DNA of 64,000 bases, taken from positions 1 to 64,000 of the forward strand of contig JAFIFV010000046.1 of the NCBI GenBank assembly GCA_020831845.1, given 5' to 3'. This DNA is from Ectothiorhodospiraceae bacterium. Its GTDB lineage: Bacteria > Pseudomonadota > Gammaproteobacteria > Nitrococcales > Aquisalimonadaceae. The position numbers were made by a program, and so were the translations under genes. Below are positions 5,830 through 42,206 of the stretch, in pieces. The notes beneath the pieces are model-generated. The model was not told the DNA's origin. It searched no databases and saw only the letters and a list, made by a program, of their open reading frames with translations. The stretch's first letter is position 1. The number at the start of each line of letters is the position of its first letter.

Positions 5830-7850
5830 CCTCGCGGCCCTCCACGCTTGAGCGCTTCGCGGCGGAAGCGGCGCTCCAGGTCATCGGCCACACCAGACGG
5901 CGCCGTCATGCCGTAGTCCCGGCCGTCCATGTGCAGATGCACGGCGCGGCCACCGCCTGCAGCGCCAGCAAGTGCCGCCGGCGCCTGCTGCTGGTTGAGA
6001 GCGCCAAGGCCTGAAGCGCCGCCAATGAAGTCCATTGCGGAGCGGTTTAGCACGCCCTCGCCGCCCAGCAGCCGCGCCAGCTGCTCGCCCTGCCCGGGCA
6101 CCGGGCCGCCGGAGTGGTACACCGGTGTTATGGCGCCAGGCGCACGCGGACGGCCGCCACCGTCTCCGGCTTCGGCAAGCACGGGGATGTTCAGCGGGTT
6201 GCGCTTGAAGAGCTTGTCCAGGAAGTCGCGGGCCTGGTCGGCGGCCTGCTGCAGCTGTTGTTCGTCGAACGTGACATCGATGTCGCCGACACCTTCCAGC
6301 TCCTCTTTCAACGCCGCCACCTGCTGTTCCAGGGTCAGCACCTCCTGCTCAGCCTGGGCCTCGCGGGCCTTGGCGGCCTCCAGGGCAATGCGCTCCACCT
6401 CGCGGATGGTTTGGATGCTGGCGTTTCGCAGGGTATCGTCTTCCTGCAGGTCGCCAATGATGCGGGCGGCGTCCCGCGCCTTCTCCAGAGCGGTATCGAA
6501 GTGGCCGGCGCGCAGCGCTGCATCGCTCTCAGCGCGCAGCCGCTGCACGTCCAGCACCGATTCCGGGGCTCCTTCGCGGGCAGCTTCGCCGCGCAGGCCT
6601 GCAAACAACTTCTCCAGTTCCTCACGCTCGCTGGTGAGACCCCGCAGGCGCCGGCGGGCGCCGTCCAGTTCACGGTTGCGATCGCGGATCTGCGCGTTGA
6701 TGCGTTGTTCTTTCTTTTCCTGCTCATCGGCATGGCGCGCGGACTCTTCCTGTGCCCCAGCCTCCAGTGCGCGCAGCCGCTGGCGGGCTCTGACTTCCTC
6801 GGTAATCTCCTCCTCGCTGTTGAACAGCGCGTCATAGAAGTCCGTCAGGCCTTGCACGCGGCCTTCCAGATTCTCCGGCAGGAGTTCGTTCAGGATCTGC
6901 CGCGCCCCACTGAAATTGCCACGCGCCAGTTCAGCCACTGATGCCGCCAGTGCACCAAGCACTTCACCACCAAGCTCGGCCAGAAAAATAACTGTACGCA
7001 GGCCCAGAACGAGAATCCGGAGCGCGTAACCCAGACCCTCTATCGCAGCCTGCATGCCGGTTGCGCCCTCGGCCGCGTTGTCGAATTCCTGGGTGATGGC
7101 GAGCAGCAGCGGCAGCACCTGGTCGGCAAGCGCCAGCCCAACACCCTGTGCGCGACTCCGGAGGATGTTCAGCTGGTCGTTGAAGTCCGCCGCGCGCTGA
7201 GCCAGCCGCCCGCTGATCTCGCGGCCGTAGCGCTCGGCATCCGCCTGCAGCTGCTGGATGCCTTCGCTGCCCTGCATCAGCAGCGGGATCAGCTCCTCAC
7301 CGCTGCGCCCGAACAGCTGCTGCGCCAGCGCGGCACGCTGAGCCGGGTTCTCCATCTGCTGGAACCGGTCGGCGATGTCGAAGAGTGTTTCACCCAGGCC
7401 GCGCAGGTTGCCATCGGCATCGGTGGCATCCACACCCACACGCCGGAACAGGTCCACCGCCGCACTGCCGTCGCGTGCTGCCTGGTCCATGTTCTGCGCG
7501 AGGTTGCGCAGCCCGGTGCTCAGGCCCTTCAGGCTGGAATCGTTCTGCTCGGCAGCGAACGCCAGTGTGCTCAGGAACTCCGCTGTTTCGCCGGTGCGCA
7601 GGCCCAGCTTCTGGATCTCTTCGGCGGTGTTGATGCTCTGGCGGATAAGCGCCTGCAGCCCGGCCGCTCCGGCCAGGCCTGCAATGATGCCGGTCAGCCG
7701 CAGCGCCGTGCGCTGCAGCTGCCGGAATTCGCGCTCCATGCCCTGCGCCTGGTTGCGTACCGTGCGCCCGGCATTGCCCATGCCGCGCTCAAGCTGCGCA
7801 GTATCGGCGGTGAGTACGAATCGGATGCGCTCAGCGATGCTGCTTGGCAT
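5826..7850 (-). CDS. Phage tail tape-measure protein
   Basis: 674 residues. The N-terminus has the usual pattern of small tape measures (RIRFVLTADTAQLERGMG), then long helical and coiled-coil stretches (about residues 20-110 and 350-540). Hydrophobic segments near LTGIIAGLAGAAGLQAL and LGYALRILVLGLRTVIFLA may insert into the host membrane. The tape length sets tail length; by the usual 0.15 nm per residue this predicts a tail near 100 nm (inference). It lies directly after the G/G-T frameshift pair, as in lambda, and overlaps the G-T reading frame by 20 nt. Confidence 0.93.
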   Translation of the reverse strand: MPSSIAERIRFVLTADTAQLERGMGNAGRTVRNQAQGMEREFRQLQRTALRLTGIIAGLAGAAGLQALIRQSINTAEEIQKLGLRTGETAEFLSTLAFAAEQNDSSLKGLSTGLRNLAQNMDQAARDGSAAVDLFRRVGVDATDADGNLRGLGETLFDIADRFQQMENPAQRAALAQQLFGRSGEELIPLLMQGSEGIQQLQADAERYGREISGRLAQRAADFNDQLNILRSRAQGVGLALADQVLPLLLAITQEFDNAAEGATGMQAAIEGLGYALRILVLGLRTVIFLAELGGEVLGALAASVAELARGNFSGARQILNELLPENLEGRVQGLTDFYDALFNSEEEITEEVRARQRLRALEAGAQEESARHADEQEKKEQRINAQIRDRNRELDGARRRLRGLTSEREELEKLFAGLRGEAAREGAPESVLDVQRLRAESDAALRAGHFDTALEKARDAARIIGDLQEDDTLRNASIQTIREVERIALEAAKAREAQAEQEVLTLEQQVAALKEELEGVGDIDVTFDEQQLQQAADQARDFLDKLFKRNPLNIPVLAEAGDGGGRPRAPGAITPVYHSGGPVPGQGEQLARLLGGEGVLNRSAMDFIGGASGLGALNQQQAPAALAGAAGGGRAVHLHMDGRDYGMTAPSGVADDLERRFRREALKRGGPRG

Positions 7851-29056: not shown

Positions 29057-29296
29057 TCACGCCGCATGATGCTTTTGCGCCTGCAGATCGGGAGGCAACC
29101 AGTCCGGATCCGGATACATCTCCGGGCTCAGTTCGAACGGGGTCACTTCGCCACTTGTGGCCCGGACGACATCCAGCACCCGCCTGGGCGGACAACCGGT
29201 GCGCTCGAACTTCCTGACGGCCTGATAGGAAACCCCCAGCACCTTAGCCAGCTCGAGGAGGCCAACTTGATCGATAGCTCGTGTCATCGCGTTCAT
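29057..29296 (-). CDS. Cro-like HTH repressor
   Basis: 79 residues. The HTH (LLELAKVLGVSYQAVRKFERTG) resembles Cro/YdaS proteins. The promoter (-35 at 29326-29331, -10 at 29303-29308) predicts a transcript start at or within a few bases of the ATG at 29296, so the message may be leaderless; an ATG at 29287 is the alternative. It diverges from the repressor gene, the classic lytic/lysogenic switch layout. Confidence 0.82.
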   Translation of the reverse strand: MNAMTRAIDQVGLLELAKVLGVSYQAVRKFERTGCPPRRVLDVVRATSGEVTPFELSPEMYPDPDWLPPDLQAQKHHAA

Positions 29297-29302
29297 GCTC
29301 GC

Positions 29303-29331
29303 AATCTAGTACCGAAAGTTACCTTCGTCAA
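29303..29331 (-). promoter_or_regulatory. Promoter of the cro-like gene with repressor operator
   Basis: On the minus strand TTGACG (29326-29331), a 17-bp spacer, and TAGATT (29303-29308). The spacer holds GGTAACTTTCGGT, which recurs in the promoter at 32250. A repressor bound there would block RNA polymerase. Reading the other way is the repressor gene, for which only a weak GATAAT -10 is seen. Confidence 0.75.
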
Positions 29332-29371: not shown

Positions 29372-29863
29372 ATGTCAGATGAAAACAGAACCGAATTTGC
29401 CCAACGGCTCAACGAAGCCCTTGATGACGCTGGGTTTCCGAGCAAAGGCGCTGGACGGCAGGTGTCCGTTGGAAAGCGATTTGGTGTCAGCCAGAAGGCG
29501 GCTCGGAAATGGCTTGAAGGTGAAGGCATACCTAAGACATCTCGCCTGATGGAGATCGCGACCGAACTACGTATCCATTTCGAATGGCTGCTGAGCGGCC
29601 GAGGTCCGAAACGCACCGAACCCGAGGACGACAAGCACCACAGCAGCGACGCAGCTACAGATTCCCGTCTCGAATATCTTCTTCTCTATGCCTCCCCGCG
29701 CTCGCGGGAGGCTCTAAAACGCATTGCCCAAGCCGCCCATGAGGGGCGCCTAACCGACGATGACATTGCACTGCTGGAGCAGACAGCAATGCGCATAGCC
29801 AAGCAGACCAGGGTGGGACCAGGTGACTACAGCAACCTCATGCAGGAGCCAACCGACGACTAA
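29372..29863 (+). CDS. Short CI-like repressor without a protease domain
   Basis: 163 residues from ATG 29372. The N-terminal HTH includes GRQVSVGKRFGVSQKAARKWLEGEGIP. The C-terminal 80 residues are helical and no S24/LexA-like Ser-Lys peptidase is present, so RecA-driven self-cleavage is unlikely. It is followed within 8 nt by a HipA-like kinase, so it could serve both as immunity repressor and as a HipB-like partner. Confidence 0.8.
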   Translation: MSDENRTEFAQRLNEALDDAGFPSKGAGRQVSVGKRFGVSQKAARKWLEGEGIPKTSRLMEIATELRIHFEWLLSGRGPKRTEPEDDKHHSSDAATDSRLEYLLLYASPRSREALKRIAQAAHEGRLTDDDIALLEQTAMRIAKQTRVGPGDYSNLMQEPTDD

Positions 29864-29870
29864 CCGCATA

Positions 29871-30695
29871 TTGCCGCTGGTCGGCGCGACCGCCATGCGG
29901 CAATTCCTGGGCTGGATGCCTGCAGATGATCATCACCGCAATGGGGTGTTCGTTGCGCAGTTTCTGGTACCGGACCAGGGATCTGTGCAGGCGTGCGTCA
30001 AGATGTACCCGCACGAACAGGGCCGAAACCGAGGCCTTGTCAACGAGATTACCGGGTACCTGTTCGGACACGCGCTGGGCATTCCTCAGCCCGATCTCGC
30101 CTTCGTCGCTCATGTCCCGATCAAGCACATCAACGGTGCCAAGGGCTTGGTGCGAGAACTGAAGCGGGCGAAAGTGGACACCTACCCGGCTTTTTGCACG
30201 CGCAGGATCGACGGGCACAGCGCCGCGGTTCGGGTACCAGATAGCCAGCTGCCGGCGGTCGTGGAAGACATTCGCAAATGGCGGGCTCTACCGCACGCCG
30301 TCGCCCTGGACGAAAACATTGCGAACAGCGACCGGCATCTGAATAATCTGTTGCGACTGGGCACCGGGGACTATGCCGTGATTGACAACGGGCTGTTGGC
30401 CTGCCCGTATCCAGGCGGCAACTGGAGCGCAGAAGATCTTGATGCGCAAGGAAATTACGTCAACGTGCTGTCCGAGAACATGTGGCAGAACAACCCGCCG
30501 GGGAGAATGGTCAGCAAGATGCTCGACCTTTCCCGCCACCACCTTTCGGCAGTCGCTGGCATTGCGAATGAGCTAGAATTCTGGTGGTCGAAACTGCTTA
30601 GCGAAGACGACCATCAGGCATTCAAGGCTTTTCTTGATGCGCGAACGGCGAATGTGCACTCACTATTGGCGAACCGTTATGGCCGGCTACTGTAA
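29871..30695 (+). CDS. HipA-like kinase
   Basis: About 274 residues from a TTG at 29871; ATG 29895 is an alternative and no strong ribosome site is seen. Kinase motifs: a Lys in QACVKMYP, the catalytic loop NSDRHLNNLL (Asp and Asn), and the metal-binding VIDNG. LVNEITGYLFGHALGIPQP resembles the HipA_2 group. Members are Ser/Thr kinases, and classic HipA phosphorylates GltX and stops growth. Here it lies between a repressor and a DUF3037-like gene. Substrate unknown. Confidence 0.82.
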   Translation: MPLVGATAMRQFLGWMPADDHHRNGVFVAQFLVPDQGSVQACVKMYPHEQGRNRGLVNEITGYLFGHALGIPQPDLAFVAHVPIKHINGAKGLVRELKRAKVDTYPAFCTRRIDGHSAAVRVPDSQLPAVVEDIRKWRALPHAVALDENIANSDRHLNNLLRLGTGDYAVIDNGLLACPYPGGNWSAEDLDAQGNYVNVLSENMWQNNPPGRMVSKMLDLSRHHLSAVAGIANELEFWWSKLLSEDDHQAFKAFLDARTANVHSLLANRYGRLL

Positions 30696-30698
30696 ATC

Positions 30699-31598
30699 AT
30701 GAACGCGAACCTGCTAGTAGAAGCGAATAGCGAAGAGCCCGCAGCAGTCAGCGGCAAGTGGTGCACGGTCAGCGTGATGCCGGACCCGCTGACTGGGGAA
30801 CGATTCAACGTGGGCGTGGTGTTCCAGGACTCCAAGCGTAAGCTTCACTGGAAGCTGCTGGATAGCACGGCCGCCTTCCGGTGCTTGTACGGCGAGGACG
30901 GCGAATCCAACCTGCGATATCTCGTCTCCGCGATTCAGGAGCATCTGCAACACCACGGTAGTTTCCGCAGCCCTTCCTCGCAAATCCTGTTCGGCCAGCG
31001 CGCTTATGCAGCAGGAGACGACGCGGAAAGCATTCTGGATGAGCTGTATCAGACCATGGTCAGTATCCGCGACCATGGCGACCCATCGGATGCCGAGCCG
31101 CTGCGTGCGCCGACGCTCAGCACTATGGACCTCCGGAAGAAGGTGACCAGGCTGGCGCGCGATCGCGACCCAAACATGGTGGATAGGGTCTTCCGGCGTG
31201 ACCCGGTTGCACTACACGATGCCAAAGAAGCGCCCCATTTGCTGGACCTGCAGATATTCGCCGAACCGGATCTCACGCACCGGAGCACGCGCTTCGGCAG
31301 CATTGTCTCCGTGTATTCCACGGCGCAGATCACCCGCGGCTACTACCTCAACGCCGGGGCACTCTCCCTGATCAACGCCCAAGATATACTCGGCAACGGC
31401 GGGCACGGCGCATTTTTCATCTTGCGACCGCCCGAGGGCACCACGGGTTACACGTCCAGTATCGTGAACGAAATTGACGAACAGATAGACCGTGCCGTGT
31501 TCCCCTTTCAGCGGGAAGCCAGGCGGCGTGTCAGGATTATCAGCACCGACTCCCCCGAAGAGCTGACCGAGGAAGCAATCGATTTCGCATTGCGCTAA
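30699..31598 (+). CDS. DUF3037-like protein paired with the HipA-like kinase
   Basis: 299 residues, 3 nt after the kinase stop. The N-terminus (KWCTVSVMPDPLTGERFNVGVVF) matches the DUF3037 pattern, whose genes often accompany HipA_2-type kinases. The remaining 170 residues extend beyond the usual DUF3037 length and are not recognised. It may be the kinase partner or regulator. Confidence 0.68.
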   Translation: MNANLLVEANSEEPAAVSGKWCTVSVMPDPLTGERFNVGVVFQDSKRKLHWKLLDSTAAFRCLYGEDGESNLRYLVSAIQEHLQHHGSFRSPSSQILFGQRAYAAGDDAESILDELYQTMVSIRDHGDPSDAEPLRAPTLSTMDLRKKVTRLARDRDPNMVDRVFRRDPVALHDAKEAPHLLDLQIFAEPDLTHRSTRFGSIVSVYSTAQITRGYYLNAGALSLINAQDILGNGGHGAFFILRPPEGTTGYTSSIVNEIDEQIDRAVFPFQREARRRVRIISTDSPEELTEEAIDFALR

Positions 31599-31603
31599 TC
31601 GCG

Positions 31604-31906
31604 CTAGGCGGCGTGATTGTCCCAAGGCTGAATCCTGGCCAGTTCGCCTTCCATCTGGTCACGCCTGGTGGCCAAATCATAATCGGCCTGCAGGCCAAGC
31701 CAGAAGCCATCGCTGACACCGAAGAAGCGGGATAGCCGCAACGCGGTATCCGCACTGATCGAACGGCGCCCGGCAATGATCTCCCCAATACGCGGCTGCG
31801 GCACACCGATCTCCTTCGCCAACCGGTAGGCCGTCACACCCATTGGGCCAAGGAACTCTTCCTGCAAAATCTCCCCAGGATGGGGATACGCAATCTGCCG
31901 TGTCAT
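31604..31906 (-). CDS. HigA-type antitoxin
   Basis: 100 residues with HPGEILQEEFLGPMGVTAYRLAKEIGVPQPRIGEIIAGRR, the VapI/HigA XRE domain, and a C-terminal SDGFWLGLQADYDL. It follows its toxin gene by 9 nt. The toxin-first order is typical for HigBA. Protein would repress the pair through the 32202-32222 palindrome. Confidence 0.93.
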   Translation of the reverse strand: MTRQIAYPHPGEILQEEFLGPMGVTAYRLAKEIGVPQPRIGEIIAGRRSISADTALRLSRFFGVSDGFWLGLQADYDLATRRDQMEGELARIQPWDNHAA

Positions 31907-31915
31907 GGCAACCTC

Positions 31916-32194
31916 CTAGTGGTAATCAACGATTTCCACGTCATGCGCATCGCCCGCCTCGAAACGAAAGCAGACGCGCCATTGATCATTGATGCGGATG
32001 CTGTACTGCCCCGCCCTGTTCCCGCTTAGCTTTTCCAGCCTGTTGGCCGGTGGCACGCGCAGATCATTGAGCGCAGCCGCTCGGTTCAGCATCGCCAGCT
32101 TTCGCAGCGCCACCTTCTCGATATTCACGAAAGCCGGAACCCGGATTCCAGCAAAGAGGCTTTCCGTGGCTCGGCAGCGAAAGCTTTTGATCAT
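31916..32194 (-). CDS. HigB-type toxin (RelE superfamily)
   Basis: 92 residues from ATG 32194 (a TTG at 32200 is the alternative). It has FVNIEKVALRKLAMLNRA, LRVPPANRLEKLSGNRAGQYSIRINDQWRVCFRF and VEIVDYH, the HigB/RelE core with basic catalytic surface and C-terminal His. Such toxins cut mRNA on the ribosome. Confidence 0.93.
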   Translation of the reverse strand: MIKSFRCRATESLFAGIRVPAFVNIEKVALRKLAMLNRAAALNDLRVPPANRLEKLSGNRAGQYSIRINDQWRVCFRFEAGDAHDVEIVDYH

Positions 32195-32201
32195 GACCAA
32201 A

Positions 32202-32222
32202 TACTAACACGTCGCGTTAGTA
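32202..32222 (-). promoter_or_regulatory. HigBA promoter/operator palindrome
   Basis: TACTAAC-7 nt-GTTAGTA, a perfect 7-bp inverted repeat 8 nt before the toxin ATG. On the minus strand TAGTAT forms the -10 and TTGCGT, 16 nt further up, a -35. HigA binding would cover the -10. Confidence 0.7.
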
Positions 32223-32249: not shown

Positions 32250-32298
32250 TTGACGTTGGTAACTTTTGGTCCTAGCATTTGAGGTAACTTTTGGTCTT
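32250..32298 (+). promoter_or_regulatory. Promoter with two repressor operators for the accessory operon
   Basis: TTGACG (32250-32255), 17 bp, TAGCAT (32273-32278). GGTAACTTTTGGTC occurs in the spacer at 32258-32271 and again at 32284-32297. These match the operator of the cro-like promoter (29309-29325). The operon starts at 32314 with GGAG 7 nt before its ATG. Confidence 0.75.

Positions 32299-40589: not shown

Positions 40590-42206
<1,617 letters not shown>

Follow-up and report, generated by a model that had tools for sequence, protein, structure and literature searches.

An operon of three closely spaced genes in the immunity region of a prophage encodes a CI-type repressor, a HipA-like kinase, and a DUF3037-like protein. 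To judge from their sequence profiles, the kinase and its partner are a distant branch of the HipAD/DS-6/PDC-M66 anti-phage pair. Thus, the pair itself, which has already been described, is not new, while its setting within a phage immunity operon is. By analogy with studied systems, we consider it most likely, with a probability of roughly 55%, that the two genes act as a lysogen-expressed, HipAD-like toxin-antitoxin defence pair in the position that rexAB holds in phage lambda. With this operon, the range of a recently described anti-phage kinase pair extends into the immunity operons of temperate phages from several hosts, which is where phage-phage competition is decided. In part of these phages, the SOS-sensing domain of the repressor has been exchanged for a kinase-linked tail, which provides a simple sequence marker for such prophages.

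The operon and its immunity region

The window, i.e., the whole stretch of 64,000 nucleotides that was analysed (positions 1 to 64,000 of contig JAFIFV010000046.1 from an Ectothiorhodospiraceae bacterium), contains the following features around the operon:

29057..29296, minus strand: divergent Cro-like gene, 79 aa (Pfam YdaS_toxin 1e-10, P22_Cro 3e-4)
29303..29331, minus strand: promoter-like site facing the Cro-like gene, TTGACG-17-TAGATT (consensus match only)
29311..29323, minus strand: candidate operator GGTAACTTTCGGT within the cro promoter-like site (motif recurrence)
29372-31598, plus strand: operon of repressor, kinase, and DUF3037-like gene (three closely spaced genes)
29372..29863, plus strand: CI-type repressor, 163 aa, ATG at 29372 (Pfam HTH_3 3.8e-5)
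29660..29860, plus strand: conserved C-terminal tail of the repressor, residues 97-163 (HMM score 88 bits)
29871..30695, plus strand: HipA-like kinase, 274 aa, TTG start (PHROG 11186, 5.5e-37)
30699..31598, plus strand: DUF3037-like protein, 299 aa, two domains (PHROG 27972, 2.3e-30)
32258..32270, plus strand: candidate operator GGTAACTTTTGGT upstream of the rightward operon, overlapping a promoter-like site at 32250-32278
32283..32295, plus strand: second candidate operator GGTAACTTTTGGT, spaced 25 nt from the first at 32258

The tight spacing noted in the original prediction was confirmed: the kinase begins with a TTG 7 nt past the repressor stop, with no gene in between, and the DUF3037-like gene begins 3 nt past the kinase stop. 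TTG 29871 is the likeliest kinase start; an alternative GTG at 29823 would overlap the repressor by 41 nt, and no in-frame ATG is found before 29895. Repressor start codons as well as some kinase starts (in the window and in loci L090 and L021) were picked by eye. The HTH-bearing N-terminal part of the repressor comprises approximately residues 1-96, and its residues 4-76 share 49% identity with the 251-aa repressor of Acinetobacter phage Ab105-1phi. It had been proposed that the repressor is devoid of a self-cleaving domain, and indeed the 163-aa protein has no Pfam match to Peptidase_S24 and carries the conserved tail at its C-terminus instead. A match to HipB was likewise not obtained in NCBIfam.

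Genes for the large and small terminase subunits and a primase are present around the operon, and since primase and terminase genes lie to the left of the Cro-like gene, which itself matches a transcriptional repressor family (PHROG 35, 7.6e-12), we regard the region as the immunity region of a prophage. The motif GGTAACTTTYGGT occurs exactly 3 times in the window (29311-29323; 32258; 32283), and allowing for up to 2 mismatches, 4 matches were observed vs 0.61 expected. As the motif is found both at the cro promoter-like site and at the rightward promoter-like site, the latter being located with its two candidate operators beyond a HigBA pair, operators probably bound the immunity region at either end in a lambda-like manner. 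The HigBA genes, a second toxin-antitoxin pair within the immunity region, follow the operon immediately but on the other strand. HigA (31604-31906, minus strand; TIGR02607, 3.6e-31) adjoins the HigB-like toxin (31916-32200, minus strand; PF05015, 3.6e-18), and the sequence upstream of higB contains a near-perfect palindrome, TACTAACACG/CGCGTTAGTA (32202-32222).

Relationship of the kinase and its partner to known systems

The kinase retains K44, E59, D154-R155-H156-x-x-N159, and I171-D172-N-G174, in agreement with the earlier statement that its Lys, DRHxxN, and IDNG motifs are kept. The residues K44, E59, D147, D154, R155, N159, and D172 are invariant in 21/21 kinase homologues, and dN is mostly well below dS among close homologues. 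The active site is intact, and the kinase looks active. The window kinase has no match in Pfam, NCBIfam, or PADLOC (none to PDC-M66A), and a PDB sequence search with the kinase and DUF profiles returned nothing useful; kinship was derived from profile and fold comparison. The best structural matches of the AlphaFold model of the kinase (pLDDT 89.6) are CtkA (Z 16.1), HipT (Z about 11), and HipA. Furthermore, when 22 phage kinases were compared profile against profile with HipA_2 kinases from chromosomes, the match reached 97% (6e-11), with unrelated control pairs below 1%, and two phage kinases match PF20613 just under the cut-off. The N-terminal subdomain of HipA is absent from the 274-aa kinase, residue 5 of which aligns with approximately position 125 of HipA in several alignment rows.

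For the partner, the Pfam match to DUF3037 is sub-threshold in the window (18.8 bits vs a cut-off of 22.6), and the label is supported by the profile-profile comparison of phage partners with DUF3037 proteins (96.5%, 8e-10), both of which have a TGE-x-x-NVGV motif in common. The PADLOC model PDC-M66B matches the window protein at 7.5e-4, while in Pseudomonas phage D14P PDC-M66A and PDC-M66B match at 0.0025 and 0.0058, respectively. DUF1829, which is part of DS-6B, has no Pfam match at E<=1 in the window protein, and the same is true of a PF11236-positive chromosomal protein (L061). The model of the DUF3037-like protein (pLDDT 88.0, pTM 0.57) has no significant match in the PDB (best 2.2e-3, Hachiman; next Can2 and XPF-type nucleases). 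The weak, non-significant resemblance to nuclease-type proteins (Hachiman, Can2, XPF/ERCC1) concerns the C-terminal domain (residues about 140-298), for which a nuclease-like fold is possible.

The closest known arrangement is HipAD/DS-6/PDC-M66 (PF20613 + PF11236), in which a small HipA-like kinase is also followed directly by a DUF3037 protein and both proteins are homologous to those described here at the profile level. However, the sequences are remote, with the window kinase lacking a Pfam match and its partner scoring below the cut-off, and the phage branch sits in a CI operon, where it is joined to a tailed repressor in the tail class. In view of this remote similarity, the operon appears to be related to HipAD as a variant and is not a proven member. 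HipBST likewise consists of three genes, which encode an HTH DNA-binding protein, a HipT-like kinase, and a separate antitoxin, and HipT is among the fold matches of our kinase. In contrast to HipBST, the antitoxin candidate is DUF3037-like and not HipS (a homologue of N-subdomain 1 of HipA), the gene order is HTH-kinase-partner, and the HTH protein is the immunity repressor of a phage and ends in a different C-terminal tail. With E. coli HipBA, the operon has in common the kinase core, the catalytic motifs, and an HTH gene directly upstream, whereas it differs in the 274-aa kinase without the N-subdomain and in a repressor without an NCBIfam HipB match. Finally, in lambda cI-rexA-rexB and BTP1 cI-bstA, too, defence genes closely follow the prophage repressor or are transcribed together with it, but only the position is common. 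The proteins are unrelated, both genes downstream of the window repressor belong to families other than RexA and RexB, and the extra genes of rexAB and bstA phages have not been described together with a changed repressor C-terminus. The earlier remark that no described module with this exact set was known held for the three genes together, of which we found no description in the mostly open-access literature searched, but not for the HipA/DUF3037 pair.

Distribution of the pair and two kinds of upstream repressor

Tail- and pair-seeded scans detected the kinase in 39 viral contigs, and the DUF gene follows directly behind it in all of them but one, which is cut by the contig end. Because scans of such collections need short conserved peptides, all counts given here are lower bounds. 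In viral contigs and named phages, the pair is nearly always located just downstream of the immunity repressor; in lineage L048, it adjoins Rz instead. The trio is thus one conserved unit in many phages, as had been anticipated, and the contrary outcome of three genes unlinked elsewhere did not occur. Named phages with the pair are Moraxella phages Mcat18 and Mcat22 and Pseudomonas phage D14P, in all of which kinase and partner are annotated as hypothetical. In Mcat22 (L002) and Mcat18 (L003), the entire trio is present under such annotations; attempts to induce M. catarrhalis phages were unsuccessful according to their authors (PMC4619438).

A single-sequence scan of bacterial genome contigs yielded no relative, and the kinase family is rare in bacterial genomes (3/321, 8/388, and 6/360). 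At each of the 10 genome loci examined, an ORF of 274-315 aa lies behind the kinase, 7 of these 10 ORFs match the DUF profile, and no match to a tail or S24-repressor profile was found next to the kinase. One of these standalone pairs adjoins Septu PtuAB (2e-133, 6e-78), another an E1-E2-like defence gene. Three further contigs (L050, L051, and L053; about 5938-6378) contain only the first half of the DUF3037-like gene (144-146 aa), possibly a decayed copy, and no kinase. In L011 (5940-6100), the kinase frame seems shifted near its start, so that a 253-aa ORF begins late, and the DUF3037-like gene is intact.

In the 27 repressor-linked lineages, the upstream repressor is protease-less in 17 and carries S24 in 10; the pair is therefore not tied to protease-less repressors, and on this point the original prediction was not supported as it stood. 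Both kinds are mutually exclusive in 27/27 lineages, and they differ in gene spacing: in the S24 class, the pair is located 65-963 nt downstream of the repressor, whereas in the protease-less class, the kinase gene begins within or right at the 3' end of the repressor gene. Several unrelated HTH domains occur among the protease-less repressors, and 13 of these repressors have in common a C-terminal tail of approximately 70 aa with the pattern [LF]A[ST]PR[ST]R-x-x-L-x-R-I-x-x-A-A-x-x-GRLT[DE]-x-D-x-x-LL. The pattern scan used an alignment split in two, the undivided alignment being too diverse. L006 and L007 are probable members of the tail family, while membership of L002 and L011, whose tails could not be shown to share ancestry with the main tail, is unproven. 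HTHs that resemble those of S24 repressors occur joined to the tail (L004/L017 55%, L013/PAE2 53%, window/Ab105-1phi 49%, L114/L020 47%). Furthermore, the kinase tree requires at least 4 switches between the repressor kinds on well supported branches, and a single clade for the tail class was rejected (p-AU 1e-10). Tail and overlap coincide without exception in 4 independent pairs, a number too small for significance (sign test, p 0.125).

Among the 13 tail repressors, tail similarity correlates with kinase similarity (rho 0.73, p 0.0005) and with DUF similarity (rho 0.58), and the corresponding value for HTH vs kinase is rho 0.00 (p 0.49). Viral scans seeded solely with the tail returned 22 loci with 21 true tails, and the pair is present at 21/21 of these; the remaining locus, L120, contains no tail by HMM and was taken as a chance match. 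Three of the 21 (L109, L111, and L114) lie on contigs that had been missed by the kinase scan. A tblastn search with one tail against 50,697 phage records found D14P only, which carries the kinase, and both strong tail matches in 369 genomes are accompanied by the kinase. A weaker match, the chromosomal HTH protein L091, whose end resembles the tail in part, lacks it. Given the co-variation of tail and kinase and the presence of the pair at every true tail locus in the viral scans, tail, kinase, and DUF3037-like protein travel as a cassette, with the HTH being swapped independently of them, as immunity specificity would lead one to expect. A separate tail-like small ORF was not detected by HMM in the gaps of the S24 class. 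Small, helical-looking ORFs (DLKAAA..L..MAHDLFREA) lie between S24 repressor and kinase in L017 (3550-4067, two tandem copies) and L035 (5474-5764).

Proposed defence function and alternative readings

As a phage-borne HipAD branch in the immunity operon, at the position of lambda rexAB, kinase and DUF3037-like protein would be made in the lysogen from the repressor promoter, and the DUF3037-like protein would keep the kinase inactive. Infection by another phage would lift this restraint, and the freed kinase would phosphorylate an essential host target, so that growth stops and the infection aborts. In the tail class, where the S24 domain is swapped for the approximately 70-aa tail inherited with kinase and partner, the tail would most likely bind one of the two, so that the repressor would serve as the DNA-binding subunit in a Hip-type complex of three parts. 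The defence reading is the most likely one in light of published relatives and of the established pattern of defence genes downstream of cI, as with RexAB and BstA (PMC12894663, PMC8585504). In HipAD/DS-6 and the Retron-Sda1 pair, the closest relatives to have been studied, the HipA-like kinase is required for anti-phage defence, deletion of DUF3037 is toxic, and a catalytic mutant of DS-6A loses defence (PMC12548924, PMC13092281); an anti-phage or growth-arrest role, as originally suggested, fits these relatives. Also in favor of it, the partner accompanies the kinase wherever the latter occurs in a complete viral locus, the pair is related at the profile level to chromosomal HipA_2/DUF3037 pairs, and standalone pairs in genomes have Septu PtuAB or an E1-E2-like defence gene as neighbors. 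The invariant catalytic residues, the mostly low dN relative to dS, and the linkage of tail and pair speak for it as well; the remote similarity to HipAD speaks against it.

The tail suggests, by analogy with HipB in HipBST (PMC10627512), a physical coupling of repressor and kinase, in which case the kinase could influence induction. If so, the operon would amount to a kinase-based lysogeny switch, a mechanism of which we found no description, and induction of protease-less prophages would become a directly testable question. Tentatively, and against unfavorable odds, the repressor tail may be the third component of a Hip-type complex, with S24 repeatedly exchanged for the tail/kinase/DUF3037-like cassette and lysogeny placed under a HipA-like kinase that senses a non-SOS signal, e.g., a competing phage, and ties induction or host arrest to it. 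It is slightly more doubtful still that tail, kinase, and DUF3037-like protein replace the S24/RecA sensor as such, so that a non-SOS signal induces the prophage; the proposed route, in which the activated kinase phosphorylates the repressor or pulls its tail, is equally doubtful. The strict exclusivity of tail-type and S24 repressors (27/27) with at least 4 switches on the kinase tree, the joining of the tail to HTHs close to those of S24 repressors (47-55%), and the contact of kinase start and repressor 3' end all favor such a replacement. However, the same pair is found beside intact S24 repressors and standalone in chromosomes, from which it follows that its basic job needs no repressor, and the phylogenetically independent contrast comprises only the 4 pairs (p 0.125). 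Moreover, antirepressors can induce protease-less repressors, as is known from other phages. The earlier idea of a role for the kinase in induction is accordingly weakened by the 10 S24 lineages and strengthened by the swap of tail for S24; as a general rule, compensation by the kinase for a missing protease was rejected on account of these 10 lineages.

S24 domains also dimerise CI. The tail might be only a dimerisation hairpin that replaces this role of S24 and is passed on with the pair as a mere neighbor, the pair being plain cargo that does not interact with the repressor, which we consider possible, if on the unlikely side. Its sequence resembles a short helical hairpin, its last residues owe part of their conservation to the overlapping kinase start, no kinase accompanies the partial tail of L091, and co-variation of tail and kinase could reflect physical linkage only. 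On the other hand, a general dimerisation tail would be expected to be common, yet tblastn over all 50,697 phage records led only to D14P, and tail-seeded viral scans revealed no tail without the pair. Least probable by some distance appears an addiction function, in which the kinase would arrest cured cells once an unstable DUF3037-like antitoxin is no longer replenished after loss of the prophage. It would agree with the toxin-antitoxin logic of the relatives (PMC12548924), the expected expression from a lysogenic operon, and the adjoining HigBA pair, and while three contigs keep part of the DUF gene without a kinase, no complete locus has the kinase without DUF. However, these three contigs look alike and carry half the gene, and an integrated prophage is rarely lost, which implies weak selection for addiction.

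Apart from the immunity region, the window encodes an integrase (40590-42173, plus strand; PHROG 95, 6.7e-90; also DNA-invertase PHROG 125) close to calls for tRNA-Ala (40626-40718) and tRNA-Met (42130-42206), which possibly marks an end of the prophage.
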